A DNA stretch of 22,304 bases from a virus, in the IMG/VR virus record IMGVR_UViG_3300003322_000227, positions 1 through 22,304 of that record. One strand, 5' to 3'. The position numbers were made by a program, and so were the translations under genes. Shown here one piece after another: positions 1,138-17,807 of this stretch. The notes beneath the pieces were generated by a model. It did no database searches. It had not been told where the DNA came from and was given only the letters and a program-made list of their open reading frames with translations. How positions within the stretch are numbered: the first letter of the stretch is position 1; the number at the start of each line of letters is the position of its first letter.

Positions 1138-1466
1138 TCGCCCTCAAGGCCGGCGTCGGGCTCGGGCTCCTGAAGCTCCAGACGTGGATCGCCGTGCAGA
1201 TCGCCGACAGCGTGTGGGGCCAAGTCGTCGTGACGTCCTGCAACGACTCCGAGCACAAGGGCCACGCGATTGCCGGGGAGGACAAGGACCCGCACTACAC
1301 CGGGCGCGCGGTCGATCTTCGACTGAATGACCGTCCAGTCGGCAACGCGCGCGCGTTGGCCGTCGACAAGCTCGTACAGGCCCTCGGGCCCGCCTACCGC
1401 GTGATCCACGAGAACGTGGGCACGGACGCCGAACACGCTCACGTGCAGTACGAAGGCCCGTTGTGA
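1134..1466 (+). CDS. M15-type zinc D,D- or L,D-peptidase (probable endolysin or wall hydrolase)
   Basis: The 110-residue product carries the zinc peptidase signature of VanY, CwlK and T5-endolysin-like M15 enzymes. His54 and Asp61 lie in DPHYTGRAVDLR, which follows the SxHxxGxAxD pattern with Asp for Ser. Glu100 and His103 lie in EHAHVQYE, an ExxH pair. The predicted zinc ligands are His54, Asp61 and His103, with Glu100 as general base. Such enzymes cut peptidoglycan peptides. The start is the GTG of a GTGA overlap; an in-frame extension back to 810 is shadow of the upstream genes. It has no wall-binding domain and is short for the family. It could act in lysis or in DNA entry if carried in the virion. 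Confidence 0.72.
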   Translation: MIALKAGVGLGLLKLQTWIAVQIADSVWGQVVVTSCNDSEHKGHAIAGEDKDPHYTGRAVDLRLNDRPVGNARALAVDKLVQALGPAYRVIHENVGTDAEHAHVQYEGPL

Positions 1467-2605: not shown

Positions 2606-2736
2606 CCCCGCGGCGGCTCTGCCCGAACGCCTGGTGCCGGGGCAAGATGATCCAGGCCGAGGACGGGACGTGGCACTGCCGGCAATGCGACCGGGAAGCG
2701 CTGTACCTGTCGGTCGGTGCTCGCCAGCCCGCCTAG
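2602..2736 (+). CDS. Tiny zinc-ribbon protein inside the terminase split
   Basis: A 44-residue frame starts at an ATG overlapping the TGA of the TerL ATPase gene. It contains Cys7-x4-Cys12 and Cys26-x2-Cys29, a four-cysteine zinc ribbon with a GTW-H turn between the pairs. Nothing else fits in the protein. The ATGA junction and the intact cysteine pairs argue that it is translated. Zinc ribbons of this size usually make a protein or nucleic-acid contact. Here it may help hold the two TerL halves together or bind DNA, which is inference from position only. Confidence 0.55.
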   Translation: MTPRRLCPNAWCRGKMIQAEDGTWHCRQCDREALYLSVGARQPA

Positions 2737-2950
2737 GCGGTGTGGCCGCTGCAATGGGCTGCTGGCCGAAGAGCCTGGGGCCACGCGATGCGTCAACTGT
2801 GGGCGGGTGTCCTATCATCCAGACCGGACGCTGATCCAGATGCGCTGGGAGTCCTCAAGCGGCATGCGACGGCGGGGCAGCCCGATCGAGGCCCCCAGCC
2901 AAGCCCGGCGCTACACCCCACGGATCAAGTCCTCGCCCGCCGATGCTTAG
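2717..2950 (+). CDS. Second small zinc-ribbon protein inside the terminase split
   Basis: This 77-residue frame begins at a GTG within the end of the preceding mini-gene, a 20-base overlap, and ends within the first codons of the TerL nuclease gene (ATGCTTAG, 8-base overlap). It has a second four-cysteine ribbon, Cys9-x2-Cys12 and Cys25-x2-Cys28, followed by a basic, Ser/Pro/Arg-rich tail. The start is uncertain because any later start would lose the first Cys pair. Together with its neighbour it exactly fills the DNA between the two terminase domains. Function unknown. Confidence 0.5.
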   Translation: MLASPPRRCGRCNGLLAEEPGATRCVNCGRVSYHPDRTLIQMRWESSSGMRRRGSPIEAPSQARRYTPRIKSSPADA

Positions 2951-3551
2951 CGGCCTCGTCGACATCGTGGCGTTCATCGACCCGGCCTCCGGGCGCAAGT
3001 CGGCCGCGCTGAAGCGCAACGCCTCGAGATCGGCCGATCTGGTCGTGGGTCGTGATGACCTCGGCCGGATCTTCGTCCTGCATGCGTGGGCCGGCCGCAT
3101 CCCGACGACCACGCACACCGATCGGATCTTCGCGCTGAACCAGCAGTGGCACCCCCGGATCATCGGCATCGACGCCTCGGCCATGCAGTCGCTCTACGCC
3201 GATGCGTTGACCCGGGAGGCCAAGCAGAAGGCCGAACGCCTGCCGCTGCAACCCATCGGCATGCCGACGACGGTGGACAAGGACAGCCGCATCCGGGCCA
3301 TCCTGCAACCGGTGATTGCGATGGGGCGCCTCTTCCTCCTGGCCGACCAGCGCGACCTGCATCAGGAGCTCGAAGCCTTTCCCCACGGGTTGACCAAGGA
3401 CTTGGTGGACGCGCTCTCGCAGGCCATTGCGCTGCTGAAACCCGTCAACCCCAAGCGCATGGAGGACGCCGACCGGGAGGCGCGGCTCGCGTACCTGCGG
3501 GAGACGAACGCCCCCGGCTACTACATCGACGCGGTGGCGCGGGGCGCGTGA
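2943..3551 (+). CDS. Terminase large subunit, RNase H-like nuclease domain (split gene, part 2)
   Basis: The 202-residue protein is the C-terminal nuclease half of a terminase large subunit, which cuts the concatemer at the start and end of packaging. The three acidic positions of the fold are visible: Asp13 in FIDPASG, Asp78 in IIGIDAS, and Asp153/Asp156 in KDLVDALSQA. A typical beta-hairpin (VVGRDDLGRIFVLHAW) follows strand 1. All active-site positions are present, so this looks like a working separate polypeptide and not a decayed remnant. The ATG lies 8 bases inside the upstream zinc-ribbon gene. The ATPase partner is encoded at 1463-2605. Confidence 0.82.
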   Translation: MLSGLVDIVAFIDPASGRKSAALKRNASRSADLVVGRDDLGRIFVLHAWAGRIPTTTHTDRIFALNQQWHPRIIGIDASAMQSLYADALTREAKQKAERLPLQPIGMPTTVDKDSRIRAILQPVIAMGRLFLLADQRDLHQELEAFPHGLTKDLVDALSQAIALLKPVNPKRMEDADREARLAYLRETNAPGYYIDAVARGA

Positions 3552-3925: not shown

Positions 3926-4294
3926 GTGTCCACGGACCTGCTCGTCAGGATGCCGCTCTGGTCGGCCTCCGCGCTCACCTCCGGGGGCACGCTGACCTCC
4001 GCCGCCATCAACAACCGGAGCTTCTCGCGCATCGAGTCGCTGATGTTCAAGCTGACCGTGAGCGCCGGCAATCCCGACGTCAAGATCGAGTATCTGGTCT
4101 CGGAGGACGACTCGACCTACAGTTCGGTGATCTCCCTGGTGGCTTCGACCGCCACGTCCTACTCCGGGTCGCCGTCGGGGGAGAATGTCGTGCCGATGCC
4201 CGCGCCGCTGGCGCCGTACTTCAAGATCAAGCTCACGGAGTTGGCGTCGAAGGCGACCACCGTCACCCTCGTCTGTCTCGCCCGGGAGCGGTAA
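3926..4294 (+). CDS. Putative small structural beta-sandwich protein
   Basis: The 122-residue protein starts at a GTG six bases after a full AGGAGG (3914-3919). It is rich in Ser, Thr and Val with alternating patterns such as VKIEYLVSEDDSTYSSVISLV, which suggest a beta-sandwich of the kind used in virion decoration, neck or tail-completion proteins. There is no signal peptide. It resembles in size and composition the proteins at 10456 and 15607, and all three lie beside fibre or portal genes. No precise family was recognised. The place before the first fibre gene suggests a virion part. Confidence 0.55.
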   Translation: MSTDLLVRMPLWSASALTSGGTLTSAAINNRSFSRIESLMFKLTVSAGNPDVKIEYLVSEDDSTYSSVISLVASTATSYSGSPSGENVVPMPAPLAPYFKIKLTELASKATTVTLVCLARER

Positions 4295-4297
4295 GCC

Positions 4298-5446
4298 GTG
4301 CGCCGATGGCTCGCGCTCCTGGCGGTGCTGCTGTGCGTCGTCGCCTCGGTCCCGTTCGCCGCCGGCCAGTCGTGGATCTATTCCTCGGCCGCCGAGCGCG
4401 CGATCGAGGCGCTGCTCCTCTTCCCCTCGTCCTGCTGCGTCATCACGAACATCTACGGGGCCGGCGGCACGCCGCACTGGACGTGGCCGACCTCGGACGG
4501 CACGCCGAATCAGGCGATCGTGACCAACGGATCGGGGGTGCTCTCATTTGGCTCGGTTGCCGGCACCACTGGCCCGACAGGACCCACCGGCCCCACGGGG
4601 GCCACGGGGCCAACGGGCGCGACTGGCGCGACGGGACCGACCGGGCCGACAGGCGCCGCAGGGGCGGCCGGCGCCGGCATCGGCTACGGATCGGCGCAGC
4701 TCTCCTACGTCGACTCCACGCACGTGCAGCTTGGCATCGGCGTCATCCCCCTCAAGGTCTCGGGCACGTGGACCACGCGGGCGATCACCGCGGCCGTGTC
4801 CGTCGACACCACGGGGCTCTCGACCTCGACGCTCTACTACGTCTACGCGCAGGATTCCTCGGGCTCGACGGTCCTGGCCCTCTCGGCCACGGCCTACGCG
4901 GTCGACACGACCTACGGCGTGCAGACCAAGAGCGGCGACGCCACGCAGACCCTGGTGGGGCTCGTGTTCACCGACGGCTCGACGCACTTCAACGACTCGG
5001 CCACCAAGCGGAACGTGCGGAGCTGGTTCTCGCGCGACGCGACCAAGACGACCACCAATCGCTTCACCGCCGAGCGGACCACGACCTCGGCGACGCCCGT
5101 GGAGATCAACTCGGAGATCGCCGTTGAGTGGGTGAACTGGGCCAACGACCGCCTCAACTACACGATCGCCGGGGCCACCAAAGTCAGCGCGACCTCCAAG
5201 GCCTCGTCCTCGATCTTCGCGATCGACGGCACGGTCGGCGCTTTTGACTTCGAGTCGTTTTCGTTCGCGACCAGCGCGTACACGTCCTTTGCCTTCACGG
5301 CTCCCGTGGCAGTGGCCGAGGGGCACCACACCGGATCGCTCTACGGGGCCGTCTTGGGCTCCAGTTCGCCGACGGCCACTTGGTACGGAGATGCCTCAGC
5401 GACGGCAGCGACCCAGATCTTCACGTCCCTGACGGGCAACCCGTGA
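4298..5446 (+). CDS. Collagen-stalk tail-fibre-like protein with a Sec signal peptide
   Basis: The 382-residue protein opens with a convincing signal peptide (residues 1-23: MRRW, then a Leu/Val/Ala core ending AAG). Residues 92-127 form twelve Gly-X-Y triplets, a collagen-like trimeric stalk. The C-terminal 250 residues read as phage tail-fibre beta domain, with LYYVYAQDSSG, TYGVQTKSGDATQTLVGLVF and VRSWFSRD segments of a kind seen in receptor-binding fibres. Fibres normally fold in the cytoplasm, so the signal peptide is odd. The GTG start is three bases after the previous TAA. The TGA at 5444-5446 is followed in the same frame by the propeller gene with no other stop between them. Confidence 0.72.
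   Translation: MRRWLALLAVLLCVVASVPFAAGQSWIYSSAAERAIEALLLFPSSCCVITNIYGAGGTPHWTWPTSDGTPNQAIVTNGSGVLSFGSVAGTTGPTGPTGPTGATGPTGATGATGPTGPTGAAGAAGAGIGYGSAQLSYVDSTHVQLGIGVIPLKVSGTWTTRAITAAVSVDTTGLSTSTLYYVYAQDSSGSTVLALSATAYAVDTTYGVQTKSGDATQTLVGLVFTDGSTHFNDSATKRNVRSWFSRDATKTTTNRFTAERTTTSATPVEINSEIAVEWVNWANDRLNYTIAGATKVSATSKASSSIFAIDGTVGAFDFESFSFATSAYTSFAFTAPVAVAEGHHTGSLYGAVLGSSSPTATWYGDASATAATQIFTSLTGNP
4571..4678 (+). repeat. Collagen-like Gly-X-Y repeat coding region
   Basis: Twelve consecutive Gly-X-Y codon triplets lie here, mostly Gly-Pro-Thr and Gly-Ala-Thr, ending in Gly-Ala-Ala and Gly-Ala-Gly. They encode residues 92-127 of the fibre protein. The DNA repeat is a 9-base period with varied third positions, so it is kept at protein level and is not a simple satellite. 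Confidence 0.9.
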
Positions 5447-5455
5447 CCGGACTGT

Positions 5456-6976
5456 GTGGCTGGCGGGGCGCCAGCGCCGCCGGCTCCCTCGTTGCCGCTA
5501 CGTGGGATCACTACCTACCACGGTGACAACGCGAGAACCGGCGTGACCGACACCGAGACGATCCTCACCTCTGGTACCGTGACCGTTGATCACTTTGGCA
5601 AGCTCCGCACGCTGACGGTGGACGGCGACGTGTACGCGCAGCCGCTCATCGTGGAGGGCCTGTCGATCGACGGCACGCTGCGCCGCGTGCTCTACGTCGC
5701 CACGTCGAAGGACCAGATCACGGCGTTCGATGCCGACACGGGCTCGGCCATCTGGCAGATCAGCCTACTCGGCTCGGGGATCGCGCCCTGGCAGAACGGC
5801 GGCGTGGACTTCAACTGCACCGATTACCTTTCGACCTACCTGGGCGTCCTCGGCACGCCGGTCATCGCGCTGGGCGACGGGACGGCCACGCTCTATCTGA
5901 TCGCGAGAACCAATGACCACGGGACCACGAAGGACACCCTGCACAAGATCAACGGGGCGACGGGCGAGATCCTCGCCAGCCACGTCATCACGGGCAGCGT
6001 GTCGGGATCCGGTGCCGGGAGCAGCGGCGGCACCCTGACCTTCGATCCGACGCTCGAAGTCAACCGCGTTTCGCTGGTCCTGTCGGGCGGTGTCGTATAT
6101 GCCGCGTGGGGCTCGCTATGCGACGCCGGCAACTATCACGGCTGGGTCATGGGCTTCAGCGCCGACGATCTCTCGCCGACGATGGTGTGGGCCTCCACGC
6201 CCGACGGCGCGCAGGGCGGCGTCTGGAACCCCGGCGGCCTCGTGGCTGACGGCGACGGCAAGCTCTACGTCACGACCGGCAACGGCGACTTCAACGCGGA
6301 CTCGGCCGGCAAGAACTACGGCATGTCGGCCGTCAAGCTCGACACCGACGGCGCCGTGCTCGACTGGTTCACGCCCTACAACTGGTCCGATCTCTCGGCG
6401 GCCGATCGCGACCTCGGCAGTGGCGGCGTGCTTCTGCGGTCGGGCCAGGTGATCCTCGGCTCGAAGGGCACCGGCGTCGAGAACGAGGCCGGGACGGGCG
6501 TGCTCTACGTGCTCGACCCATCGAACCTCGGGCACCTCGTGAACAACGACACGCAGATCCTGCAGAAGTGGGCCAACGGCGTGGCGGTGTTCTCGCCACT
6601 CGCCTATTTCAACGGCGCGCTGTTCCTCAACGACTCGGGCGCGGTGCGGCGCTATCCGTACTCGGGCGGGGCCTACGCGACCACGCCCTCCCACACCTAC
6701 GCGGGCGGATTCAGCCGTGGCGCGCCTTGGATCTCCGCCAACGGCGACACCGATGGAATCCTCTGGCTCGCCAACAACGGCGGCTTTCACACGGCGGCCG
6801 GTCCCGCTGCGCTGTACGCGCTCCGCGCCGACGACCTGACGAATCTGTGGGCGAGCAACCAACGGCCCGGCGATCAAGCGCCAGGACGGATGAAGTGGGC
6901 CACGCCGATCGTGTGGAACGGGCGCGTCTACTTCGGCGGCACCGACGCCGTCACCGTCTACGGGCTCCGGCCATGA
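5456..6976 (+). CDS. PQQ-type beta-propeller protein
   Basis: The 506-residue protein begins with a Pro/Ala-rich linker followed by TYHGDNARTG (residues 20-29), a motif at the start of bacterial PQQ-like or WD-like propellers. Blade motifs repeat: VLYVATSKDQITAFDADTG, LYLIARTNDHG, KLYVTTGNGDFN, VLYVLDPSN and RVYFGGTDAV, giving about six or seven blades. Such proteins are usually exported, but this frame has no signal peptide. The GTG at 5456 lies nine bases after the TGA of the collagen-stalk gene, in the same frame, with no Shine-Dalgarno. It may be made by reinitiation or as a readthrough fusion. A binding role at a cell surface or on the virion is inferred. Enzyme activity is not evident. 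Confidence 0.7.
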   Translation: MAGGAPAPPAPSLPLRGITTYHGDNARTGVTDTETILTSGTVTVDHFGKLRTLTVDGDVYAQPLIVEGLSIDGTLRRVLYVATSKDQITAFDADTGSAIWQISLLGSGIAPWQNGGVDFNCTDYLSTYLGVLGTPVIALGDGTATLYLIARTNDHGTTKDTLHKINGATGEILASHVITGSVSGSGAGSSGGTLTFDPTLEVNRVSLVLSGGVVYAAWGSLCDAGNYHGWVMGFSADDLSPTMVWASTPDGAQGGVWNPGGLVADGDGKLYVTTGNGDFNADSAGKNYGMSAVKLDTDGAVLDWFTPYNWSDLSAADRDLGSGGVLLRSGQVILGSKGTGVENEAGTGVLYVLDPSNLGHLVNNDTQILQKWANGVAVFSPLAYFNGALFLNDSGAVRRYPYSGGAYATTPSHTYAGGFSRGAPWISANGDTDGILWLANNGGFHTAAGPAALYALRADDLTNLWASNQRPGDQAPGRMKWATPIVWNGRVYFGGTDAVTVYGLRP

Positions 6977-7251
6977 AAGGACCGCACATGTTCCGCTTGG
7001 TCGCCGCGCTGCTCATCACGCTGGCCATCGTCGTGTCCGCATCCGCGCAGGGGTCCACGCCCGCCGCGTCCTGCGACGATCAGCTCAAGATCGTCCTCAA
7101 GCACGACCAGGACCTTGACCAGCACCGGCGCCAGTTGGAGGTGCGCGTCGCCTCCCAGGCGGCGCAGATCGAGGACAAGGACCGCGAGATCGCCAAGCTC
7201 AAGGCCGATCTGGCGAAGGCCACGCCGAAGCCGGAGGAGAAGAAGAAGTGA
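6973..7251 (+). CDS. Exported or membrane-anchored coiled-coil protein
   Basis: The protein is 92 residues if read from the ATG in the ATGA overlap. An alternative ATG at 6988 has AAAGGA six bases upstream and gives 87 residues. A hydrophobic segment, LVAALLITLAIVVSASA, looks like a Sec signal or an N-terminal anchor and ends in ASA before Gln. The rest is a charged coiled coil (DQDLDQHRRQLEVRV, then IEDKDREIAKLKADLAKA) with a Lys-rich tail. The layout resembles inner-membrane spanins (Rz type), but no matching outer-membrane partner follows. It could instead be a secreted stalk component of the neighbouring fibre and propeller. Confidence 0.6.
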   Translation: MKGPHMFRLVAALLITLAIVVSASAQGSTPAASCDDQLKIVLKHDQDLDQHRRQLEVRVASQAAQIEDKDREIAKLKADLAKATPKPEEKKK

Positions 7252-7301
7252 AACCGAAGAAGAAGCCGGGCCATCGTCCGGGGCCGCCGAGGCACAAGTG
7301 A
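7248..7301 (+). CDS. Possible 17-residue Lys/Pro peptide linking two genes
   Basis: A GTG overlaps the stop of the coiled-coil gene (GTGA), and the 17-residue frame ends in TGA, which overlaps the GTG of the next gene, again GTGA. The product starts MKPKKKPGHRPG and is almost entirely Lys, Pro, Gly, Arg and His. It may be only a translational bridge whose passage brings ribosomes to 7298. It may also be a real cationic peptide. Size makes the call weak, and it rests on the two perfect overlaps. Confidence 0.3.
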   Translation: MKPKKKPGHRPGPPRHK

Positions 7302-7480
7302 TCGCCTCCGACCAATGCACGAAGAACTGGCTTCCGCCGCAGGTCGATGCGCTCGCGGCGGCTGTGACGTCGCTCACGGACACCGTGGCCGGCCTACAGG
7401 GTGATCTCTCGACGTTCAAGGATCTGCTCGCCAAGCTGGACGAGCGGGTGACGATCCTAGAGAAAAAGGTCGGCGCGTGA
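7298..7480 (+). CDS. Small coiled-coil protein (60 residues)
   Basis: Read from the GTG at 7298, this gives a 60-residue protein. A short N-terminus with one Cys is followed by a heptad-patterned segment, VDALAAAVTSLTDTVAGLQG, then FKDLLAKLDERVTILEKKVG, a clear trimer- or dimer-forming coiled coil. The frame is open upstream to 7115, but that part is Arg/Ser-rich shadow of the preceding gene. It has no signal peptide. It resembles short phage coiled-coil proteins placed before tail-fibre or chaperone genes. The end overlaps the ATP-grasp gene by GTGA. Confidence 0.55.
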   Translation: MIASDQCTKNWLPPQVDALAAAVTSLTDTVAGLQGDLSTFKDLLAKLDERVTILEKKVGA

Positions 7481-8820
7481 AGCTCGCCTTCGCCGATCTG
7501 GAGGGCGACCTCTTCCCCGCCGTCTGGCGCGTGGCGCAGGAAGGCCATCAGGTCCGCTACTGGCTCAAGGACCAGGACGACATGATCCAGAAGATCGGCC
7601 GCGGGATGGTCGGCAAGGTCGAGTCCTTGGACGATCTGATCGGCTGGTCCCCGGATGTCGTGGTCGCCTACCAGACGCCGCAGGCGACGCATGCGGCCAA
7701 GCGGGCTGGCATCGCCGCGTGGGGCGCTACCCCCGACTCGCTGGCCCTCGAAAGCGACCGCGTCGAGGCGGCCAAGATCGCCGGCAAGTACGGCGTCGGC
7801 GTGGTTCCTCTGACCAAGCGATTCGGCACCGTGCGGGCCGCGCTCAATTTCGCCGACGCCCACCCAGACGAACGGTGGGTCGTCAAGGCGGACGGGGGCC
7901 CGAAGGTCGAGACGTCTACCACGCATGTCACCACGGACGGTGAACATCTGCGCCAGGTGCTCGCCTACGAGGCCGGGCGGGGCGCGGATACGTTCATCTT
8001 GCAGGCGCGAGTGTCGGGCGTCGAAGTGTCCACCGAAGGGTGGTTCGATTACCGGCGCGGGTGGCTCCGGCCCGTCAACTCGACACTCGAGCGCAAGCAC
8101 CAGCAGGAGGGCGACCTCGGCCCGATGGTCGGCTGCGCCGGCTCCATCGTCTGGACCTGGCCCGACGCCGAGCCTCGTCTCTGGCGGGAGACGCTGAAGG
8201 GCCTGACCCCGTGGCTGGAGGACGTCAAGTACGTCGGCCCCATCGACGTGAACGCGATCATCGATTACGAGACGCACCGGCCGCATTTCCTGGAGTTCAC
8301 GCCGCGGCTCGGCTGGTCGGCCTTCAACGCGCTCATGGCCGGGATCACCGGTAACCTCGGGGAGTTCTTCGTGGCCCTCGGCCATGGCGAAGCCGACCGT
8401 CTGCCAGACTTCCGGCACCCGTTCATGGGGTCGGTCATGGTGTCGATACCCGATGCGGCCGACGTCCCGCTGACCGCCCCGTACCATGCCGTGCGCCACA
8501 TCCAGCCCAAGAACGTGTGGCTGGACAAGGGCGTCCTTCGCTCAACGGGAGCGGGCGCTGAATCGGGGTTCATCGGTGTATTTGAGGCCACGGATGCCGG
8601 GTCCACGCTGGACGAGGTGCGCTCGCGCATCTATGGGCGCGAGATCCCCCGCATCAGCGCGGCCAGTGAGTTGGCCTACCGGCGCGACATCGGCGAGCGC
8701 GCGTCGATGGACCTCATGGCGCTGGAAGCGTGGGGGTATCAAGTCTACCCCGCCGAAGATCTGAGGCCGTCGACCCGTGATCGTCGGGCCGTCCCATCGC
8801 CCGTGGCGGTAAGCGCATGA
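7477..8820 (+). CDS. PurD-like ATP-grasp ligase
   Basis: The 447-residue protein reads as an ATP-grasp enzyme of the phosphoribosylamine-glycine ligase type. The N-terminal region (LAFADLEGDLFPAVWRVAQEGH) resembles the pre-ATP-grasp domain. Lys137 in WVVKADGG is the ATP-binding lysine. Residues 174-190 (ILQARVSGVEVSTEGWF) and 253-279 (VGPIDVNAII, then FLEFTPRLG) hold the metal-binding acids, with Glu273. The usual Asn of E-x-N-x-R is Thr here. ATP-grasp enzymes join a carboxylate to an amine or thiol through an acyl-phosphate. A purine pathway role is unlikely among virion genes. Modification of a virion or host peptide is more plausible but unproven. The start is a GTGA overlap. Confidence 0.72.
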   Translation: MKLAFADLEGDLFPAVWRVAQEGHQVRYWLKDQDDMIQKIGRGMVGKVESLDDLIGWSPDVVVAYQTPQATHAAKRAGIAAWGATPDSLALESDRVEAAKIAGKYGVGVVPLTKRFGTVRAALNFADAHPDERWVVKADGGPKVETSTTHVTTDGEHLRQVLAYEAGRGADTFILQARVSGVEVSTEGWFDYRRGWLRPVNSTLERKHQQEGDLGPMVGCAGSIVWTWPDAEPRLWRETLKGLTPWLEDVKYVGPIDVNAIIDYETHRPHFLEFTPRLGWSAFNALMAGITGNLGEFFVALGHGEADRLPDFRHPFMGSVMVSIPDAADVPLTAPYHAVRHIQPKNVWLDKGVLRSTGAGAESGFIGVFEATDAGSTLDEVRSRIYGREIPRISAASELAYRRDIGERASMDLMALEAWGYQVYPAEDLRPSTRDRRAVPSPVAVSA

Positions 8821-8987
8821 GTCAGACGATCGAGGAACATCTGGCCTCACTCGGCGTGATCGGGAAGGTCGTCTGCGACGACTGCGGATGGATGCGATTT
8901 GTCTATCGTGAGCCCGCCGAAGCTAACTCCATGCGTCAGGCGACCCGTGAGTTGACCAGTCACCTCAAGGAGCGCCACGGTGTCTGA
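8817..8987 (+). CDS. Small C2H2-type zinc-finger protein
   Basis: Fifty-six residues are encoded from an ATG in an ATGA overlap. Cys20-x2-Cys23 in VCDDCGW and His49-x4-His54 in SHLKERH give a C2H2-like finger with a 25-residue loop. The charged helix before the histidines (RQATRELTSHLKE) fits a finger helix. The stop lies inside the next gene, which starts eight bases earlier. Small C2H2 proteins of this kind are frequent in phages and their roles are mostly unknown. Confidence 0.6.
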   Translation: MSQTIEEHLASLGVIGKVVCDDCGWMRFVYREPAEANSMRQATRELTSHLKERHGV

Positions 8988-10119
8988 GGAGACGATCAAT
9001 CCACTCCCGACGGCCGGGAGTACCTTCCTCGAAGTCCTGCGCGCGTTCCTCCAGAACGAGGACGCGGACCGCTTCGTCCAGCAGTTCCGGGGCTATGTGG
9101 TCAGCGGAGGCATCCACGGTGCCGTCGCTGGGCTGACCGCCACGCCGACCCCGCTCACTGCCTACCCCGGCGGCCTTTACACGACCGAGACCGGCGCGAT
9201 CACCTACGCGGACGCTTCGACCACGCACGTCATCGCGCACAGCGACACCACGGGCAACGAGGGCTCGTACATCCGCGTGCCCGGGACGCACTACCTCACG
9301 GCCGTTGGGGGCGCGGCCCCCACGCTGCCGGCCTCGTGCGTGCGCCTGATGACCGTGACCACGGCCGGCGGGGCGATCACCGCCGTCGCCGATGTGCGCG
9401 AGCTCTCGCCGCTGTACAACGAGACGGGCCAACCGTACGTCCGTCTTGCGGGGACGGAAGCCTCCGGCGAGGACTACAAGATCCTCGAAAACTCGGGGCT
9501 GCTCCAGGTCCATCGCAACGACGGCACGAACGACGCGCCCGTGTGGACGGTCCTGCTCGGCATGGCCTTCCCCGACGTGTCGGTCGGCTGGGACCTCAGT
9601 CTCATCACGGCGCCGCGCTATCAGGTGTTTCCCGACAAGGACGGCACGTTCGCCATGCTGTCCGACATCTCGGCCGGCCTGTTCGCTGCTGGCACGCGCA
9701 TGCTGTTCGATCAAGATGCCGCGCCGACGGGCTGGACCCGTGACACGACGGCTAGCCTCGACGACCGCGTGCTCCGTCTGGTCACCGGCGCGAGGGCCGA
9801 TGGCGGATCATGGACGATCACCGGCCTCAGCATGGTCCCCCACGCGCACTCCATGTCCGATCACCACCACGGCGTGCCGGTCTCGGGCAGCGACGGCGTG
9901 ACCCAGGGCGGCATCGCCAAGGCGGCTTCGTGGCCGTTCGGGACCGGCGGTGTCGCGACGCTCGATCGTGGTGGGGCGATCGACGCGGAGTTTTCCGGCA
10001 ACATCCTCATGTCGGCTGGCCCGGATACCGCGAACACGGACGCGCAAGCGCCGGCCGCGTCGAGCGATGGCACGTGGCGGCCTCTGCACCGCGACGTCAT
10101 CGTCTGTACCAAAGACTGA
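8980..10119 (+). CDS. Tail fibre with C-terminal collar-type receptor-binding domain
   Basis: The 379-residue protein starts at a GTG eight bases inside the previous gene. The N-terminal third has fibre-type beta segments (GGLYTTETGAITYADASTT, GSYIRVPGTHYLTA). From about residue 238 it matches the phage tail-collar or fibre-tip pattern: GTRMLFDQDAAPTGWTRDT, a VLRLVTG strand, a His-rich site (HAH 288-290, HHH 295-297), and the closing TWRPLHRDVIVCTKD. In related fibre tips, paired HxH motifs coordinate iron along the trimer axis. It has no signal peptide, unlike the other two large fibre-like proteins here, so it is the best candidate for a conventional virion receptor-binding protein. Confidence 0.8.
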   Translation: MSEETINPLPTAGSTFLEVLRAFLQNEDADRFVQQFRGYVVSGGIHGAVAGLTATPTPLTAYPGGLYTTETGAITYADASTTHVIAHSDTTGNEGSYIRVPGTHYLTAVGGAAPTLPASCVRLMTVTTAGGAITAVADVRELSPLYNETGQPYVRLAGTEASGEDYKILENSGLLQVHRNDGTNDAPVWTVLLGMAFPDVSVGWDLSLITAPRYQVFPDKDGTFAMLSDISAGLFAAGTRMLFDQDAAPTGWTRDTTASLDDRVLRLVTGARADGGSWTITGLSMVPHAHSMSDHHHGVPVSGSDGVTQGGIAKAASWPFGTGGVATLDRGGAIDAEFSGNILMSAGPDTANTDAQAPAASSDGTWRPLHRDVIVCTKD

Positions 10120-10478
10120 TGGCCGACAAATTCTGGATCGCCCGCATCGTCAACACCGAGGGCTGCGAGTGCCCGCTCCGCGCCCGGATGTGTCCCGGCC
10201 AGCGCAAGGGCAAGCACGGCTGCGCGTTCTGGGTGGACGAGGTGGTCCGCAACGACACCGGGCTCTCGGAACCGCTGTCGGGCTGTCTCTTCGCGTTCCA
10301 GTACGTCATGGGGCACGAGATCGTGCTGGAGTCCGTGCGGAGCCAGGCGACCGTGCAGCAAGCGTCACAACGGCTGGTCGAATCCGGGCGCACGATCGCG
10401 CAGGGCGTGGTGCGACTGATGGCCGATGCGGTCCCGCTGACCTCAGGAGGCGCGCGTGGCGTACTTTCTCCTCGGTAA
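10119..10478 (+). CDS. Small Cys/His-containing protein
   Basis: The 119-residue protein starts at an ATG sharing one base with the fibre stop (TGATG). Near the N-terminus it has Cys16, Cys18, Cys25, His33 and Cys35, a possible zinc or disulfide cluster. It continues with a hydrophobic and then helical part (SLFAFQYVMG-like segment, then VQQASQRLVESGR). The final 23 bases overlap the next gene. No family was recognised. Its place right after a fibre tip would suit a fibre-assembly factor, but nothing in the sequence proves that. Confidence 0.55.
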   Translation: MADKFWIARIVNTEGCECPLRARMCPGQRKGKHGCAFWVDEVVRNDTGLSEPLSGCLFAFQYVMGHEIVLESVRSQATVQQASQRLVESGRTIAQGVVRLMADAVPLTSGGARGVLSPR

Positions 10479-10821
10479 CCAGCAGGACGGCCGGATCGGC
10501 CCCCAAGAAGCGCCCACGATTATCGGCACGCTCCTGACCGTGGCCGAGCCGCTACTGCTCAAGGCCATGGTGCTCAGCAACACGACGGCGAGCGCCCGGA
10601 CCTATACCGCGCATGTCGTCGCGTCGGGTGACACGGCCGGAGCCACGAATCAGGTCATCCCAGGAGTGAACATCGCCCCGAACGACACGCTGACCTACGA
10701 GTTCGGCCCCGGCATCCCTGTGAGCGGGGGCGCCGCCGTCCCCGCGAACGACACCATCCAGCACGTCGCGTCGGGGGCGGGCGTGAATGTCACGGCGGTG
10801 CTCAGCCGGAGGAATCGGTGA
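10456..10821 (+). CDS. Putative small structural beta protein
   Basis: This 121-residue protein starts at a GTG five bases after a full AGGAGG (10445-10450), so it is probably well expressed. It is rich in Ala, Val, Thr and Gly with segments such as LLLKAMVLSNTTASARTYTAH and GVNIAPNDTLTYEFG, reading as a beta-sandwich of the kind found in phage decoration or fibre-attachment proteins. It has no signal peptide. Its stop forms a GTGA overlap with the large exported fibre gene. It resembles the proteins at 3926 and 15607 in size and composition, but I cannot show homology by eye. Confidence 0.55.
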   Translation: MAYFLLGNQQDGRIGPQEAPTIIGTLLTVAEPLLLKAMVLSNTTASARTYTAHVVASGDTAGATNQVIPGVNIAPNDTLTYEFGPGIPVSGGAAVPANDTIQHVASGAGVNVTAVLSRRNR

Positions 10822-13800
10822 CAAAGCACCGATCATTCGTCGTCCTCTGGCTCGCGCTCTGCCTCGCGGTCATTGGCGGCACGTGTTCCTCCGCTGACGC
10901 GCAGCAGGTCGTGCTGTCGGTCAAGGAGCAGCAGGCTCTCAAGGCCCTCATGGGCCCGACCGCCACCATCGAGCAGCTACTCATCACGGAGTCCACCGGA
11001 CAGCCGCTCTCCTCGTCAGGTATCGCTCGGATCTATGTCGACAGCGGCACGCACCTGCTCATGTGCTCGATCAACGGCGGGTCGTACGCCGCGTGTCTCG
11101 GCAGTGGCGGCGGGGTGACCACGTTCGGGGGCGCGGCGGGCGCGATCACGCTGACCAGTGATAGCAACGTCACGCTGACGATGGTCGGCAACGCGCTGAC
11201 CGCCGGCTGGTCGGGCACGCTCCTCGCCGCGCGCTTCCCGATCCTCACGGGCGACGTCACGACGCCGGGCGGCTCGCTGGCCACCACCCTCGCGGCAAGC
11301 GGCGTGACCGCCGACACGTACGGTGATGCCTCGCACGTCGCGCAGATCACGGTAGACGCGAAAGGTCGGATCACGGCGGCATCCAACGTCGCTATCCCGG
11401 CTGCGCTGACGGGCAGCGGGGCGGCCACGCGGTGTGCGTTCTGGACGGGCGCGTCCGCGCTGTCGTCCGACTCGGCGTGCAACTGGGACAACACCAACAA
11501 GCGCCTCGGCATCGGCGGTACCCCCACGGCCTTCCTGCACGTCTTGGAGACGATCTCGGCCCCGCAGGCCACCACGCAGATTCTGGCCAAGATCGCCCCA
11601 ACCGTCAGCGGATCGCGCAAGACGAATCCGGTGGTCGTGCCCTACGGCTTCTCCAACTTCAACTTCTACCCCTCCGCGGGCTACGACCTCTGCTCAGACG
11701 CCACCACGATCGACAACCCGACGGCCAAGGTGTTCAACGACACACGGGTGTCCTCGGTCTGCCGCATGATCGACATGCAGACTACGACGGCCTTCATCGG
11801 CCCCGGGGCCGGATTCCTCGTCTCGTTCAAGGACAACTCGACCGCCTCCGCGGCCCCCGGCAACGAGCGCGCCGGGATGGGCGTCCGCATGACCTTCAAC
11901 GGCACCTCGGGGGGTTGGGGCGCGCTGATCGACGCCGTGGCCACGAGCTCGGCCGACGCCGGCATCCCCGTGATCCAGGGTCTCGGCGTGAACACGGGCG
12001 ACGCGCGCAGCGGGGCCACGCCGATCGCCATCGGGCTCGGCATCGGGCACAACGGATTCCTCGGAGACACCGGAACGGCCGGTGATACGGCGCTGTCCAT
12101 CTCGGCGGACTATGGCACGACGCAATCCGGTGACTTCCCGGCGGGGCCGTATGCCGAAGCCTGGACGACCGCCATCAAGCTCTCTGGCAATAGCGGCAAT
12201 CGCTTTGTCCTGAGCAACGCCGGCACGGTGACGACTGGGGTCTGGAACGCGGGCGCCGTGACGTCCTCGAGTACGGTGACCGCCACGACCACGATCACGG
12301 GCGCCACCGTGCGGGCTGGCACGGCCGCCGATGGCATCGCCATGACGTCCACCGTCCTCAAGGGCACGGCGTCCAGCACCGACAACTTCAAGCTGACCGC
12401 GACCACGGGCCAGATCCTCTCCGGCTCCTCGACCGACGGCACCTTCATGGAGCCGACCCAGATCTACGGTAAGGCCAGCGGGACGGCGATGTTCCAGATG
12501 GTCACCACGACCGGACAGATCGGAGGCTTCTCGCTGGCCCTGACCGAGACGGGCGGCGGGACGGATACGGTGACGCTGAAAGCCGTCTCCGCGATCACGA
12601 CGTCCTACACGCTGATCCTGCCGAACGAGTCGGGGGGCAACGGCGATTGCTTGGTCCGCGACGCCGGCAGCAGTCACGTCGTCACGCTGTCGTTCTCGGC
12701 CTCGTGCGGCGGCGGTGGTGGTGGTATCACCGACCTCAACGGCCTGTCGGCCGCGTCGCAGACCTTTGTGGACGATACGAACGTGTCGATGGTCTCGTCG
12801 GGCAGCACGCACACCATCACGTGGCTGAGCACGCTGGCTAAGACGCGCGGCGGGTGGGGTGCGGACATCTCGGGGTCGTCGGGCCTTGTCAGCCTGAACG
12901 CGGGGACGGTCACGTTCAACACGATCACCGCCACGCGCATCCCCGTGATGGCCGCGAGCAATGCGATCACGTCGGACAGCGACTTCACCTACGACACCAC
13001 GACCGACACCCTGCGCGTGGGAACTGGCGTCGCGGGCGTGTTCGCCGACAAAACGCAGATCGCCGGCCTCGCCGCGAGCGTCGCCACCTTCCAGTTGAAT
13101 GCCGCAACGGGCCAGATCGGGACCACGGGCACCGTCCTCGCGGGGACTGCCGCCAACGGCTGTTACATGGACCCGAACCAGATCTATTGCAACAACGCCA
13201 GCGTGGCGACCTTCCAGGTCGTGCGCTCGTCGGGTCAGGTCGGCACCTCGAATCTGGCCGGGACGGGGACGCGCGTGCTCGGTGCGACCAGTGCCGGCGT
13301 ACTCACCGATGCGATCACGGGGGCCAATCTTCAGGTCAACGCGCTCGGGGTCGGCACGGCCAACTCCACGGCGGGGACGATCAAGACGACCGCCGAGATC
13401 CGATCGGGGACCAGCACGACCTACGCCTTCATGGACCCGACGCAACTGGCGACCATCGGCAGCGGGTCGGCGACGTTTCAGGTCACGGCATCCAGCGGTC
13501 AGGTGGGCTCGTCCAATTGGGCGGGCACCGGTAATCGCCTGACCTACGCGACCGCCGCGGGCGTGATGACCCCGGCCTCGGGCATCCGCACCGACGGCAA
13601 CAAGCTGACGCTTTACAACAACTCGTCGATCACCAACGGCCAACTCCTCATCGGCAACACGGCCACCGGTACCTTCGACAAGAACACGCTGACCGGCACG
13701 GCCAATCAGGTCACGGTGACGGTCGGCGGCGGCACGATCACGCTGTCCACCCCGCAATCCATCGGCACCGCCAGCAGCGTGACGTTCGGCGACATGACGG

Positions 13801-14297
13801 CGGGCACGTCGACCAATGGCTGTTACGTGCAATCCACGCAAGTGTTCTGCAACAATGCGAGCGTCCCGACGATCCAGCTGACGCGCTCCACGGGGCAGCT
13901 CGGTGGTGTGACCGGACTCCTCCAGGGCGCGGGGCAGACCTCGGCGTCGTTCAGCACCTCGGGCAACATGGGCGGCTCGTGGAAGCTCCAAGACTCGGGG
14001 GCGTCCGCGGGCAACGGCGGCGCGATCGTGTTCGGAGCCAGTCAGGGCTTCTACGCGGCCATCAAGGGGTTGCTCGCCAACGGCACCAACAACACGGCAG
14101 GTGACGTCATCGTGGCGACCCGAGTGAACACCACGGACGGCACGCTGACCGAGCAGATGCGGATTGCGGGGTCGGGGGCGATCACCATGACGACGCTCAA
14201 GACCACGGGGTCGGCCGGCAGCAAGAAAGTGGTGTGCGTGGACACCTCGACCGGCCAACTCTACGCCAGTAGCACGAGCACGGACTGCTCCAACTGA
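10818..14297 (+). CDS. Large repeat-containing tail-fibre-like protein with a signal peptide
   Basis: The 1159-residue protein begins with a Sec-type signal (SFVVLWLALCLAVIGG core, likely cut after ADA at about residue 28). The body is typical fibre sequence: GDVTTPGGSLATTLAASGVT, HVAQITVDAKGRITAASN, then a beta-rich region, a six-glycine hinge (residues 631-636) followed by ITDLNGLSAASQTFV, and LAKTRGGWG. Six copies of a 36-residue unit occupy the second half. The C-terminus ends with a short Cys-containing segment (VVCVDTSTGQLYAS). Such proteins form trimeric shafts that touch the host. The signal peptide implies export from the infected cell or an unusual assembly route. Start GTG in a GTGA overlap. 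Confidence 0.78.
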   Translation: MTKHRSFVVLWLALCLAVIGGTCSSADAQQVVLSVKEQQALKALMGPTATIEQLLITESTGQPLSSSGIARIYVDSGTHLLMCSINGGSYAACLGSGGGVTTFGGAAGAITLTSDSNVTLTMVGNALTAGWSGTLLAARFPILTGDVTTPGGSLATTLAASGVTADTYGDASHVAQITVDAKGRITAASNVAIPAALTGSGAATRCAFWTGASALSSDSACNWDNTNKRLGIGGTPTAFLHVLETISAPQATTQILAKIAPTVSGSRKTNPVVVPYGFSNFNFYPSAGYDLCSDATTIDNPTAKVFNDTRVSSVCRMIDMQTTTAFIGPGAGFLVSFKDNSTASAAPGNERAGMGVRMTFNGTSGGWGALIDAVATSSADAGIPVIQGLGVNTGDARSGATPIAIGLGIGHNGFLGDTGTAGDTALSISADYGTTQSGDFPAGPYAEAWTTAIKLSGNSGNRFVLSNAGTVTTGVWNAGAVTSSSTVTATTTITGATVRAGTAADGIAMTSTVLKGTASSTDNFKLTATTGQILSGSSTDGTFMEPTQIYGKASGTAMFQMVTTTGQIGGFSLALTETGGGTDTVTLKAVSAITTSYTLILPNESGGNGDCLVRDAGSSHVVTLSFSASCGGGGGGITDLNGLSAASQTFVDDTNVSMVSSGSTHTITWLSTLAKTRGGWGADISGSSGLVSLNAGTVTFNTITATRIPVMAASNAITSDSDFTYDTTTDTLRVGTGVAGVFADKTQIAGLAASVATFQLNAATGQIGTTGTVLAGTAANGCYMDPNQIYCNNASVATFQVVRSSGQVGTSNLAGTGTRVLGATSAGVLTDAITGANLQVNALGVGTANSTAGTIKTTAEIRSGTSTTYAFMDPTQLATIGSGSATFQVTASSGQVGSSNWAGTGNRLTYATAAGVMTPASGIRTDGNKLTLYNNSSITNGQLLIGNTATGTFDKNTLTGTANQVTVTVGGGTITLSTPQSIGTASSVTFGDMTAGTSTNGCYVQSTQVFCNNASVPTIQLTRSTGQLGGVTGLLQGAGQTSASFSTSGNMGGSWKLQDSGASAGNGGAIVFGASQGFYAAIKGLLANGTNNTAGDVIVATRVNTTDGTLTEQMRIAGSGAITMTTLKTTGSAGSKKVVCVDTSTGQLYASSTSTDCSN
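12315..13907 (+). repeat. Six copies of a 36-residue fibre repeat
   Basis: Six related units of about 108 bases start at 12315, 12420, 13017, 13140, 13404 and 13800. The protein consensus is xGT-x3-Gly-x2-Met-Asp-Pro-x-Gln-Ile, then an Ala-Ser stretch, Phe-Gln, and Thr/Ser-Gly-Gln-Ile/Val-Gly. Phe or Ile 25 and Gly32-Gln33 hold in all six. The first two units are adjacent; the others are separated by spacers. Units four and six share NGCY and CNNASV, with cysteines at the same two places (8 and 17). Confidence 0.8.
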
Positions 14298-14596
14298 TGC
14301 ACGAATTCTACGGCTTCCGATTCGATCCGACCTTCAGCCTCGGGACGATCATCAACCTCTTGCTCTTCATCGGGGTGGTGTTCGGGTATTTCCAGCGCCT
14401 GGAGCGACGCCAGAACGCTCGCGCCGCAGTTATCGATAGGCGTCTCGATCATCTCGATAAGTGTGTCGACACCAAGGCGGCCGAAATGGACGCCAAGGTG
14501 GATCGGCTGCACGCCGAGAACGTGAGCGAAATCCGCGTCATCAAGGCGCAGGTCGGCGACATGTGGCACGAGTTCATCGGACGCAAACGCCGATGA
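14297..14596 (+). CDS. One-TM coiled-coil protein (spanin- or holin-like)
   Basis: The 99-residue protein starts at an ATG sharing one base with the fibre stop (TGATG). Residues 15-34 (SLGTIINLLLFIGVVFGYF) form a single membrane segment, followed by a basic patch (RLERRQNAR) and a long charged coiled coil to the end. The layout matches inner-membrane spanins, or some small phage membrane proteins of unknown role. The next gene, overlapping by ATGA, encodes a lipoprotein, the same order as Rz and Rz1. Whether it works in lysis, in anchoring the exported proteins or in something else is open. Confidence 0.6.
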   Translation: MHEFYGFRFDPTFSLGTIINLLLFIGVVFGYFQRLERRQNARAAVIDRRLDHLDKCVDTKAAEMDAKVDRLHAENVSEIRVIKAQVGDMWHEFIGRKRR

Positions 14597-15432
14597 CGCT
14601 GGGGCGGGCCCTCATCCTCGCCGCCGCGCTCCTCGCCCTGTACGGCTGCGACACGTCCTGTACCGACCAGCCCGACGGGCTTCGTCACTGCACGTTCACG
14701 CGCGAGTTCGAGGGCCGATCCTTCCGTCTGCGCGCCCCGAGCGCCGCCATGACGCATCCGCTCGTGGTCATGCTCCACGGTGGCGGCCAAGACGAGACGA
14801 GTGGCCCCAACGACATCCGCACCATCTCGGCGGTCGAATCGTCGGTGAGCCCCGACACCGTGATCGTCTACCCGCACGCCACGGGCACGCAGTGGAACCT
14901 CGTGCCCGAAGCGTGCGATCTGCTCGGCCTCTGCGACGATGACGTGGCCTACGTCAACGCCGTCCTGTACACCGTGGCGCAGATGTACGCCCTTGACCCG
15001 ACGAGGGCGGTGCTGGCTGGACACTCAGGCGGCGCGTTCATCGCTCTGCGGATGGCTTGCGAGCCCGATGCGAACCCCGGACAGATCGCGCTCGTGGCGA
15101 TGGCCGCGACCCTCAGCGACGGCGAGGCGGCTCTTTGCGCGAGTCATCAAGAGTCTCCGCTCGTCATGCTCAACGGCACCGAGGATGGCCTGATCCAGTA
15201 CGGCGGGGCCACCTTCGCTGGGGTCCACGGCCTGCCGGTGGTCGACGCGGCTGAACGGATCGTCCAGGCGCGTGTGGCCGATCCTGACGCCGGGTGGGGA
15301 TTTGCGTATCCCCCGGCCGAGGTGAGGCTGTACGATGCCGACGTGACGCTGGTCACGCTCAACGGCTGGGGCCACGGCTGGCATCCCTTCGCGACTCTCG
15401 CCGTGGCGAATTACGCACGAGGAGGCTGGTAA
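14593..15432 (+). CDS. Alpha/beta-hydrolase lipoprotein, polyhydroxybutyrate-depolymerase or feruloyl-esterase type
   Basis: The 279-residue protein has a lipoprotein signal (ALILAAALLALYGC, Cys19). The mature enzyme has an HGGG oxyanion loop at 62-65, the nucleophile Ser145 in GHSGG, Asp198 in NGTEDG and His261 in GWGHGWHP: a complete serine hydrolase triad arranged as in LpqC-like (COG3509) esterases. Extra cysteines suggest disulfides, as expected outside the cytoplasm. Such enzymes cut ester bonds in polyesters or acylated polysaccharides. In a phage it may strip ester groups from the host surface or help late release. The real substrate is unknown. The start is the ATGA overlap with the TM protein. 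In-frame sequence before 14593 is shadow. Confidence 0.8.
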   Translation: MTLGRALILAAALLALYGCDTSCTDQPDGLRHCTFTREFEGRSFRLRAPSAAMTHPLVVMLHGGGQDETSGPNDIRTISAVESSVSPDTVIVYPHATGTQWNLVPEACDLLGLCDDDVAYVNAVLYTVAQMYALDPTRAVLAGHSGGAFIALRMACEPDANPGQIALVAMAATLSDGEAALCASHQESPLVMLNGTEDGLIQYGGATFAGVHGLPVVDAAERIVQARVADPDAGWGFAYPPAEVRLYDADVTLVTLNGWGHGWHPFATLAVANYARGGW

Positions 15433-15606: not shown

Positions 15607-15957
15607 ATGCCGACGCTCGAAGCCACGCTGATCCTCAAGCAAGACGGCGAGGCGCTGGGCGATCCCATCGTCTCCCGGCTCGACGTGGACGCTGTGCTGA
15701 CCTACGTGGCGCCGAGTAACACGGGTGGCCCCTACGTCACCATCGGCAGCATCCCCACGGCCCAGGTCGTCCTCCTGCGTCCGCTCGCCCATGCGTTGAC
15801 CGCGCGATTCGACGGGCAGACGGATGCCGGCGTGACCGTCAATGCGGGGGGCTTCGTGTTCATCTTCAACGCCACCCTTGATGCCGGGGCCTCGGACAAC
15901 GTGAAGATCAGCGTGCCGGTCGAGACGGACGTGCTCTTCATGGAAGCGGGCGCGTGA
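15607..15957 (+). CDS. Putative small structural beta protein before the portal
   Basis: The 116-residue protein starts one base after the previous TAG and ends in a GTGA overlap with the portal gene. It has alternating beta-type segments (LEATLILKQDGEA, AQVVLLRP, VTVNAGGFVFIFNATLDA) and no signal peptide or membrane segment. It is likely a small virion protein. The similarity to the proteins at 3926 and 10456 is in size and composition only. Confidence 0.55.
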   Translation: MPTLEATLILKQDGEALGDPIVSRLDVDAVLTYVAPSNTGGPYVTIGSIPTAQVVLLRPLAHALTARFDGQTDAGVTVNAGGFVFIFNATLDAGASDNVKISVPVETDVLFMEAGA

Positions 15958-17807
15958 GACTCGTCGCCAAACATCGCACCGTCCCGAAACTCGAATACAC
16001 CGAGGCGGGACTGGCGGCGATGGTGGCCTACTTCGACCGCGAAGTGGAAGATGCGGTCAGCGCCCGCAACCCGCAAGAGGGCGTCTGGCGCGAAGTGCTG
16101 CGCCAGTACGACGCGGTGCCGCGCACGCCGGTCCGCAACGTGCCGATCGAGAACGCGCCGAACATCGAAGTCCCACTCGGCGCCATCGCCACGGATAGCG
16201 TCTACGCGCAGATCATCGACCTCATCTTCAATATCCAGCCGATCCTGACCGTCCGTGCCGTCAGCGCCGATGACTTCCCCGACCGCCGCATGCGGGCCGA
16301 AGCTCTCCAGGAACACATCAACTGGGGGGTGGCGAACGAGTGGGGCCTGCGGGCGGCGGCCGACGAGACCATCCTGGACGACGTGAAGCTCGGGACCGGG
16401 ATCTTTCACATCCCGTTCGTGGAGTCGATCCGCAAGACGCGCGTGGAGACCGTGACCTCCCGCGGACCAGCCATCCGCCCCTTCCCCGTCGAGGACTTCT
16501 TCGTCCCCGGTGGCGCCTACGGCGACCTCCAGACCGCCAAGTGGTGCGCGGGCCGGTGGTGGTACACCGAATCCGAGTTGAAGGATCACGCGCGAGCCGA
16601 GGACTGGGACATCTCGATGGTTAGCCCGTCAGCGGCTATCGGCTGGGTCCGCAACCGGCGCGAGATGCTGGGGCGCACGTGGCGCAACGTGTGGGCCGAG
16701 CTCTTCGAGATCTGGCGCATCTGGTGCGTCTACGACATCGACGAGGACGGCATTGCCGAGGATCTGATCGTCACGTGGGACCGGACCAGTCGCACGTTGC
16801 TGAAAGTCGAGTACAACGGCTACGACAGCCGCCCGTGGGAGGCCGCGCGCTACCAGTTGCGCGGCCACCTCTTCTACGGCATCGGCGTCATGGACATGTG
16901 CTCGCCGTTCCAGTACGAAGCCAGCGAAGTCCACTCCTACGCGCTGGCCAATGCGCTGCTTGCCAACGCGCGGTTCTGGAAAGGGCGAGATTCGAGCATG
17001 CCGGAGAGCATGCATATCTGGCCGGGGAAGTATCAGTCGATGAACGACCCCGACGACCTCCAGGCCGTCCAGATGGCGGATGTCTACCCGTCGATGATTA
17101 TGATGCAGGGCTTCCCGATTCAACTCTCGAAGGAGCGGGTCGGGATCAACGAGGTCGCCCAGCCCGGACGGGGGGCCATGCCGCGGACGCCCGGGATCAC
17201 GGCCATCAGCCTGCTCTCCCAAGCCAACAAGCGATTCACGCCGGCCTTCGACGGGGTGCGGCTCGCCTGTGCCGGGGCCGTGCGGCAGTGCCTCCTGCGG
17301 GAGTCCGAGCGGCTGCTGGCGGGCGATAAGGGACTCGCCGAGCACATCGAAAAGATCCACGGCCCGCGCAAGGGCATGGAGATCGTTGAGACGCTGAAGG
17401 ACCCGGACTTTCACCTCCACTACGCGATCGAATTGACGGCCTCCTCGACCACGATCAACCGGGACGTCGAGCGCCAGAACTCGATCCTGCTGGTCAACAT
17501 CCTTGGCCAGTATTACCAGCGGGTGTTGGAACTGGTCGCCATCGCCAGTAACCCGCAGACGCCAGAGCCGGTGAGGGACGCGGCCAAGAAGATCGCCGAG
17601 GCGGCGGGGGCGATCATCGGCCGCACCCTGCGGACCTTCGATCAGGTGCGGGACCCGGAGGCGTTCATCGTGGACGTCAACGCCGAGCTCGACAAGGCAG
17701 GACAGGCCGGCCAGCAGGGCATGCAGATGCTCATGCAGATGTTCGCCCCGATGGCCGGCGCGGGGGCCTCAGCCGGGGCCCTGCCCAGCGGGATTACCAC
17801 CGGATGA
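15954..17807 (+). CDS. Portal protein
   Basis: The 617-residue protein has the features of a P22-like portal, the dodecameric ring through which DNA enters and leaves the head. The segment NVPIENAPNIEVPLGAIA (residues 62-80) and SVYAQIIDLIFNIQPILTV after it are a typical N-terminal portal signature, and a wing region with aromatic-rich WWYTESELKDHAR and WRIWCVYDIDEDGIAEDL follows. The C-terminus is Gln/Met/Gly/Ala-rich (GQQGMQMLMQMF), which often forms the barrel or a flexible tail. Length suits the family. The start is a GTG in a GTGA overlap. Unlike most phages, the gene is 12 kb away from the terminase genes. Confidence 0.85.
   Translation: MRLVAKHRTVPKLEYTEAGLAAMVAYFDREVEDAVSARNPQEGVWREVLRQYDAVPRTPVRNVPIENAPNIEVPLGAIATDSVYAQIIDLIFNIQPILTVRAVSADDFPDRRMRAEALQEHINWGVANEWGLRAAADETILDDVKLGTGIFHIPFVESIRKTRVETVTSRGPAIRPFPVEDFFVPGGAYGDLQTAKWCAGRWWYTESELKDHARAEDWDISMVSPSAAIGWVRNRREMLGRTWRNVWAELFEIWRIWCVYDIDEDGIAEDLIVTWDRTSRTLLKVEYNGYDSRPWEAARYQLRGHLFYGIGVMDMCSPFQYEASEVHSYALANALLANARFWKGRDSSMPESMHIWPGKYQSMNDPDDLQAVQMADVYPSMIMMQGFPIQLSKERVGINEVAQPGRGAMPRTPGITAISLLSQANKRFTPAFDGVRLACAGAVRQCLLRESERLLAGDKGLAEHIEKIHGPRKGMEIVETLKDPDFHLHYAIELTASSTTINRDVERQNSILLVNILGQYYQRVLELVAIASNPQTPEPVRDAAKKIAEAAGAIIGRTLRTFDQVRDPEAFIVDVNAELDKAGQAGQQGMQMLMQMFAPMAGAGASAGALPSGITTG

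Follow-up and report, generated by a model that had tools for sequence, protein, structure and literature searches.

The signalled fibre-like proteins of this phage lineage very probably leave the cytoplasm of the infected cell. The evidence is a set of signal peptides that have diverged and yet been kept in an ortholog, enrichment of such signals across the lineage, a high cysteine content of the signalled proteins, and gain and loss of the signal on one and the same fibre domain. Ordinary phage tail fibres fold in the cytoplasm, serve the virion and need no export. A sequence-only reading of this DNA had proposed that fibre-type proteins are sent out of the cell; on the evidence above its export component stands, while superinfection exclusion, adhesion or release as the purpose are guesses. 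We lean slightly towards the view that several phage lineages (from metagenomes, spring water and soil) repeatedly turn virion fibres into Sec-exported, disulphide-bonded fibres that either decorate the infected cell or join virions outside the cytoplasm, which would amount to a second place for making fibres. Infected cells may then carry phage adhesins on their surface or release them ahead of lysis, or virions may be completed outside the cytoplasm.

Genomic context

The window (the whole stretch of DNA analysed, 22,304 nucleotides) is a 22.3-kb linear IMG/VR virus record of even GC content (~67%) from a soil-type phage. The plus strand encodes, in order, small genes, a split terminase, the fibre cassette, the portal, scaffold-like genes, the major capsid protein and a beta-helix-type protein. 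The fibre cassette is thus placed between terminase and portal, inside the late structural region. The main features are:

1463..3551, + strand: terminase large subunit in two ORFs (ATPase 1463-2605, nuclease 2943-3551)
4298..5446, + strand: predicted exported collagen-stalk fibre, 382 aa (signal 1-23, short mature N-terminus, collagen 89-125, tip 133-351)
4298..4366, + strand: Sec signal peptide MRRWLALLAVLLCVVASVPFAAG, then QSWI (codon usage, upstream GGGAG, detector)
5456..6976, + strand: beta-propeller (BamB/PQQ-like), 506 aa, without its own signal or a Shine-Dalgarno site
6973..7251, preferred start 6988, + strand: predicted exported coiled coil; AAGGA upstream; MFRLVAALLITLAIVVSASA, then QGST
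8980..10119, + strand: fibre with a receptor-binding-protein-like shoulder domain (~residues 40-141); no signal, signalled relatives elsewhere
10818..14297, + strand: predicted exported giant fibre, 1159 aa (signal 1-28)
10818..10901, + strand: Sec signal peptide MTKHRSFVVLWLALCLAVIGGTCSSADA, then QQVV (strong GGAGG just before GTG; signal in the L012 ortholog)
14297..14596, + strand: small protein with one membrane helix and a coiled coil; distant homolog at L043:5071-5289
14593..15432, + strand: predicted lipoprotein esterase of feruloyl-esterase / PHA-depolymerase type; lipobox MTLGRALILAAALLALYG, then CDTS
15954..17807, + strand: portal protein
20093..21007, + strand: major capsid protein, the query that found the lineage
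21077..22003, + strand: fibre/beta-helix-type protein after the capsid gene; no signal, L018 homolog signalled

Between the terminase ATPase and nuclease ORFs lie small zinc-ribbon-like ORFs (2602-2736 and 2717-2950); the terminase split is present in all nine relatives examined, and the small genes in between vary or are absent. The late cassette also includes a PurD-like ATP-grasp protein (7477-8820), with a relative in L029 at 29% identity. A search against Rfam gave no match.

Signal peptides in the window

Signals were called with our own rule-based detector (not SignalP), which identifies a tripartite signal with an AxA site or a lipobox and places cleavage positions approximately. A codon-usage gene caller, which is heuristic and wrong in places (e.g., a spurious antisense ORF in contig G001), puts starts at 4298, 6988, 10818 and 14593, and there is a signal at each N-terminus. 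Four of the 31 called window genes are signal-positive; in 500 N-terminus shuffles the mean was 0.31 and no shuffle gave more than 2. With the same detector, 2 of 102 non-gene ORFs of the window are positive. The products of 4298, 6988 and 10818 have a positive n-region, a hydrophobic core and an AxA-type site at the true start, and the starts have Shine-Dalgarno support (GGGAG, AAGGA and GGAGG, respectively). The esterase encoded at 14593 has a lipobox, LALYG followed by C, with the cysteine after the hydrophobic core and an unusual tyrosine at -2.

The four Sec or lipoprotein signals that the sequence-only reading listed at 4298, 6973 (better 6988), 10818 and 14593 are therefore recovered, where 0.3 are expected from shuffles. 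It had named absence of a signal at the fibre genes 4298 and 10818 as grounds for giving up export, and both are positive in the rule-based detector. A further signal that it placed at 874 was rejected: there is no positive charge ahead of the hydrophobic stretch, the cleavage-site test fails as well, and the gene is without a Shine-Dalgarno site. Fibres 8980 and 21077 are without a signal, so the trait is not found in every fibre of the window.

The probably exported fibres and their neighbours

As proposed earlier, the 4298 product has a collagen stalk (residues 89-125). It shares its tip with the myophage fibres L005, RHph_TM26 and RR1-A; these are unsignalled and begin with a different N-terminus, which is swapped for a signal and collagen in the window. 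At the corresponding locus, contig G001 encodes a 50-aa protein with a signal (MRRLWMTVVLPLVLLAGALPAQA, then SHFY) that is the counterpart of the first 50 residues of 4298. The 4298 fibre and the adjoining propeller share a frame, with one TGA (then C) between them (window 5444-5492), and a Pro/Ala-rich linker follows the 4298 stop codon. Read-through of the UGA could, on this arrangement, append an exported propeller to the fibre.

The fibre character ascribed to 10818 is borne out by fibre repeats that it has in common with the phage fibres L001-L003 and with Tunturi_4. Both 4298 and 10818 thus have sequence in common with phage fibres and a position in the late module, as is expected of phage tail fibres. 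The esterase matches PDB 9j07 (E 4e-9) and, below the cut-off, NF050058 (E 3e-14). The small protein encoded at 14297 is probably located in the inner membrane.

Retention of signals, and cysteine content, in relatives

The capsid protein query of IMG/VR found 36 relatives; portal, terminase and propeller queries of the same database returned no new ones. The nearest relative, L012 (contig G001; length 53 kb, terminal repeat of 123 bases), has a capsid protein 73% identical to that of the window and the same region. Whether relatives keep the signals had been put forward as a check, and L012/G001 is signalled at all three shared loci (4298, 6988 and 10818), with 8980 unsignalled in both genomes. 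The giant fibre ortholog in L012 has 1604 aa and starts MKRFILGFVLGTVFGFVLCAVAPLAVA, then QQVILTTREQQALKALMG, where the window has MTKHRSFVVLWLALCLAVIGGTCSSADA, then QQVVLSVKEQQALKALMG. Identity is 29% over the signal and 63% over the mature N-terminus, i.e., the letters of the signal have changed and its property has been kept, as expected of a working signal. When the mature N-terminus of 10818 was used to scan IMG/VR, only the contig of L012 came up, as before. The G001 ortholog of the coiled coil (6988) is 39% identical and keeps its signal; here the signal has diverged to about the same degree as the mature part, thus this locus shows retention only.

L004 was considered as a separate relative and rejected. 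It is the same virus (12 of 6272 bases differ, all of them within 1220-1277) and is therefore uninformative on selection on the signals. These differences are packed into 58 bases of an M15-peptidase-like gene, a small recombination patch. Species genomes scanned with the capsid alignment yielded a single hit, a 5-kb contig of a TA06 MAG, and this is too weak for a host call.

Across the window and nine relatives, a signal at the called start is present in 21 of the 193 proteins that are 200 aa or longer, compared to 2.1 expected and a maximum of 4 in 40 shuffles. Signalled proteins occur in six of the nine relatives (G001, G003, G004, G007, G008 and G009; none in G002, G006 and G014). The median cysteine content of signal-bearing proteins is 2.2%, versus 0.7% for the remaining large proteins encoded by these genomes (one-sided Mann-Whitney P=6e-9, a value that is only indicative because the proteins are not mutually independent). 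The window's signalled fibres are at the low end, with 0.6% and 1.2% cysteine, and are mildly enriched at best. Overall, the sequence comparisons show signals that are real and selected, and the cysteine content of the lineage fits an oxidising compartment; cysteines may have been acquired alongside signals in this fibre-exporting lineage.

Two arrangements in relatives may be mentioned here. In G008 (30843-36694 and 43150-44589; L026) there is a run of consecutive signalled genes; Thr-Pro linkers and repeats very rich in cysteine give several of their products the look of proteins secreted by a particular bacterial group. At L015:62-2503, a TspO/MBR membrane domain is fused in a single ORF to a tailspike-like / pectate-lyase-type beta-helix.

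One fibre domain with and without a signal

Homologs of the 8980 fibre fall into those without a signal (n=6: the window, G001, L025, two in L039, and L095) and those with a signal or membrane helix (n=7: L027, L043, L026, L036, L046, L100 and L098). The domain directly follows the signal in L027 and L100, and is near the C-terminus in L026. Signalled members do not form one clade (AU P=0.027), and at least 3 changes are required on the best tree. The family scan was run with a closer subset, as the alignment of the whole family is too diverse. Five of the seven signalled members, and none of the six unsignalled ones, have a pair of cysteines (CW.. and HYL.DC, with minor variants; Fisher P=0.016). 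Given the few independent signal gains, we consider a tie between this pair and export suggestive. The 21077 family repeats the pattern, with a signalled form in L018. The same fibre domains thus move between signalled and unsignalled forms.

The 8980 structural model is good only at ~residues 70-140. The structural matches of the family's domain, all below the level of a safe match, are the p2 receptor-binding protein (Z 5.0), the cyanophage A-1(L) fibre (4.9), Mtd (4.1) and the HFTV1 baseplate (3.6). The only match to a Bdellovibrio mosaic adhesive trimer (MAT) is to the Bd2133 tip (Z 3.1), and Foldseek against viral models returned nothing significant for 8980.

Possible destinations of the exported fibres

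We give an even chance to the possibility that the exported fibres act at or outside the host envelope, and favour this over loading onto virions. Late in infection, host Sec machinery would take the fibre- and adhesin-type proteins unfolded across the inner membrane, and the signal would then be removed or, for 14593, lipid added. The fibres would trimerise with disulphides in the periplasm. As adhesins that are either displayed or shed, and together with exported surface-active enzymes (here the esterase), they would work at the envelope of the infected cell or in its surroundings. Virions would be equipped with unsignalled fibres, e.g., 8980 and 21077. The likeliest uses would be to cover or alter host receptors and to loosen the host's own matrix before release.

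The envelope is favoured because relatives have predicted lipoprotein, membrane-anchored and TspO-fused versions: lipoboxes on L036 and on the L043 fibre (LAGC in the latter), a membrane helix on L098 and the TspO fusion in L015. We also count for the envelope or the outside the lipoprotein esterase together with the lectin and spike domains predicted to be exported elsewhere (polysaccharide-active or lectin-type companions such as the laminin-G protein of L046, the beta-helix of L028 and the tail-spike-like L009), as well as the unsignalled fibre-like genes that persist in most members, among them the window, G001, G003 and G007. Against this reading, 4298 and 10818 are without a recognised cell-surface anchor.

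It is possible, although we think it rather doubtful, that the exported fibres are receptor-binding proteins of the virion, folded in the periplasm with disulphide bonds and docked onto virions at lysis. The edge of the 8980 domain is precisely where the signal is gained or lost (L027 and L100 versus L025), the best structural matches of that domain are to the receptor-binding, fibre and baseplate proteins given above, and the signalled genes are placed in the virion module. Retention of the shoulder-like domain in signalled members of the family (Z ~5, modest) would suit docking. In G008 the fibre-like genes are all signalled, and no clear unsignalled fibre was seen there. However, tailed virions are assembled in the cytoplasm, the lipoprotein, membrane-helix and TspO-linked versions would remain on membranes, and separate unsignalled fibres are kept in the window and other members.

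It is improbable that these are host adhesin and enzyme genes carried as passenger cargo, exported and without a phage-specific role. Cells do have exported fibre-like adhesins, such as Bdellovibrio MAT (PMC10769870), the propeller and esterase are like cellular families, and the Thr-Pro linkers and cysteine-rich repeats of the G008 and G009 proteins look cellular. Yet signalled and unsignalled forms of one phage fibre family occur within the same late module, the 4298 tip is a known phage fibre tip, and the signal of the giant fibre is kept across a large divergence. It is very improbable that the N-termini are wrong starts or chance hydrophobic runs and not working signals: the calls do come from a rule-based detector only, and 874 is a case of this kind, but Shine-Dalgarno sites and codon usage back the other starts, orthologs keep the signals, and the cysteine enrichment is independent of the detector's rules.

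Comparison with known systems

Signalled fibres are also found in other phages. The control phages gave 7 signal-positives in 200, six of the seven in ctLwi270 and Tunturi_4, for which "control" is a loose term because both were met through similarity searches. In ctLwi270 (MW202554) four signalled genes, counting the 195-aa one, follow the portal. Tunturi_4 (PP885687) is a cultured siphovirus of the acidobacterium Tunturiibacter, and its annotated tail fibre, tail protein and virion structural protein are all signalled. A fibre motif, GDAxHVxQVTxDAKGR, has a flanking cysteine pair in both signalled Tunturi_4 fibres (L006:6321-11263). Like the window lineage, each of these phages has at least three signalled fibre, spike or lectin-type proteins adjoining virion genes, although they are unrelated or only distantly related to it. 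The main text of the Tunturi paper (PMC11924767) makes no mention of signal peptides or mass spectrometry, and our open-literature searches, with most subscription papers outside their coverage, found no description of signalled phage-encoded fibres.

Small exported phage proteins of another kind are known. Lambda Lom and Bor and T5 Llp are signalled morons of the host envelope, and lom sits among tail genes. Unlike the window fibres, these are small outer-membrane proteins or lipoproteins and not trimeric fibres. PblA and PblB are tail-type proteins. Encoded by Streptococcus mitis phage SM1, they are adhesins that bind phosphocholine and reach the host surface via permeabilisation by holin and lysin (PMC2920869). 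They may be compared with the window fibres in being phage-encoded, and they reach the surface of the host. However, they do so by the holin/lysin route in a Gram-positive host, whereas the Sec signals of the window proteins suggest another route.

The Bdellovibrio MAT proteins are phage-tail-fibre-like, with a signal peptide, then a beta-rich domain of ~130 aa and variable tips, and are displayed outside the cell; the N-domain has no structural homologue in the PDB (PMC10769870). By description, several fibre-like proteins of the window lineage are similar in that they open with a signal. MAT proteins differ in being encoded by a bacterium and serving a predator's recognition of prey. Fibre export in these phages would be the viral counterpart of the fibres that Bdellovibrio exports, and the cultured phage Tunturi_4 makes the question testable.
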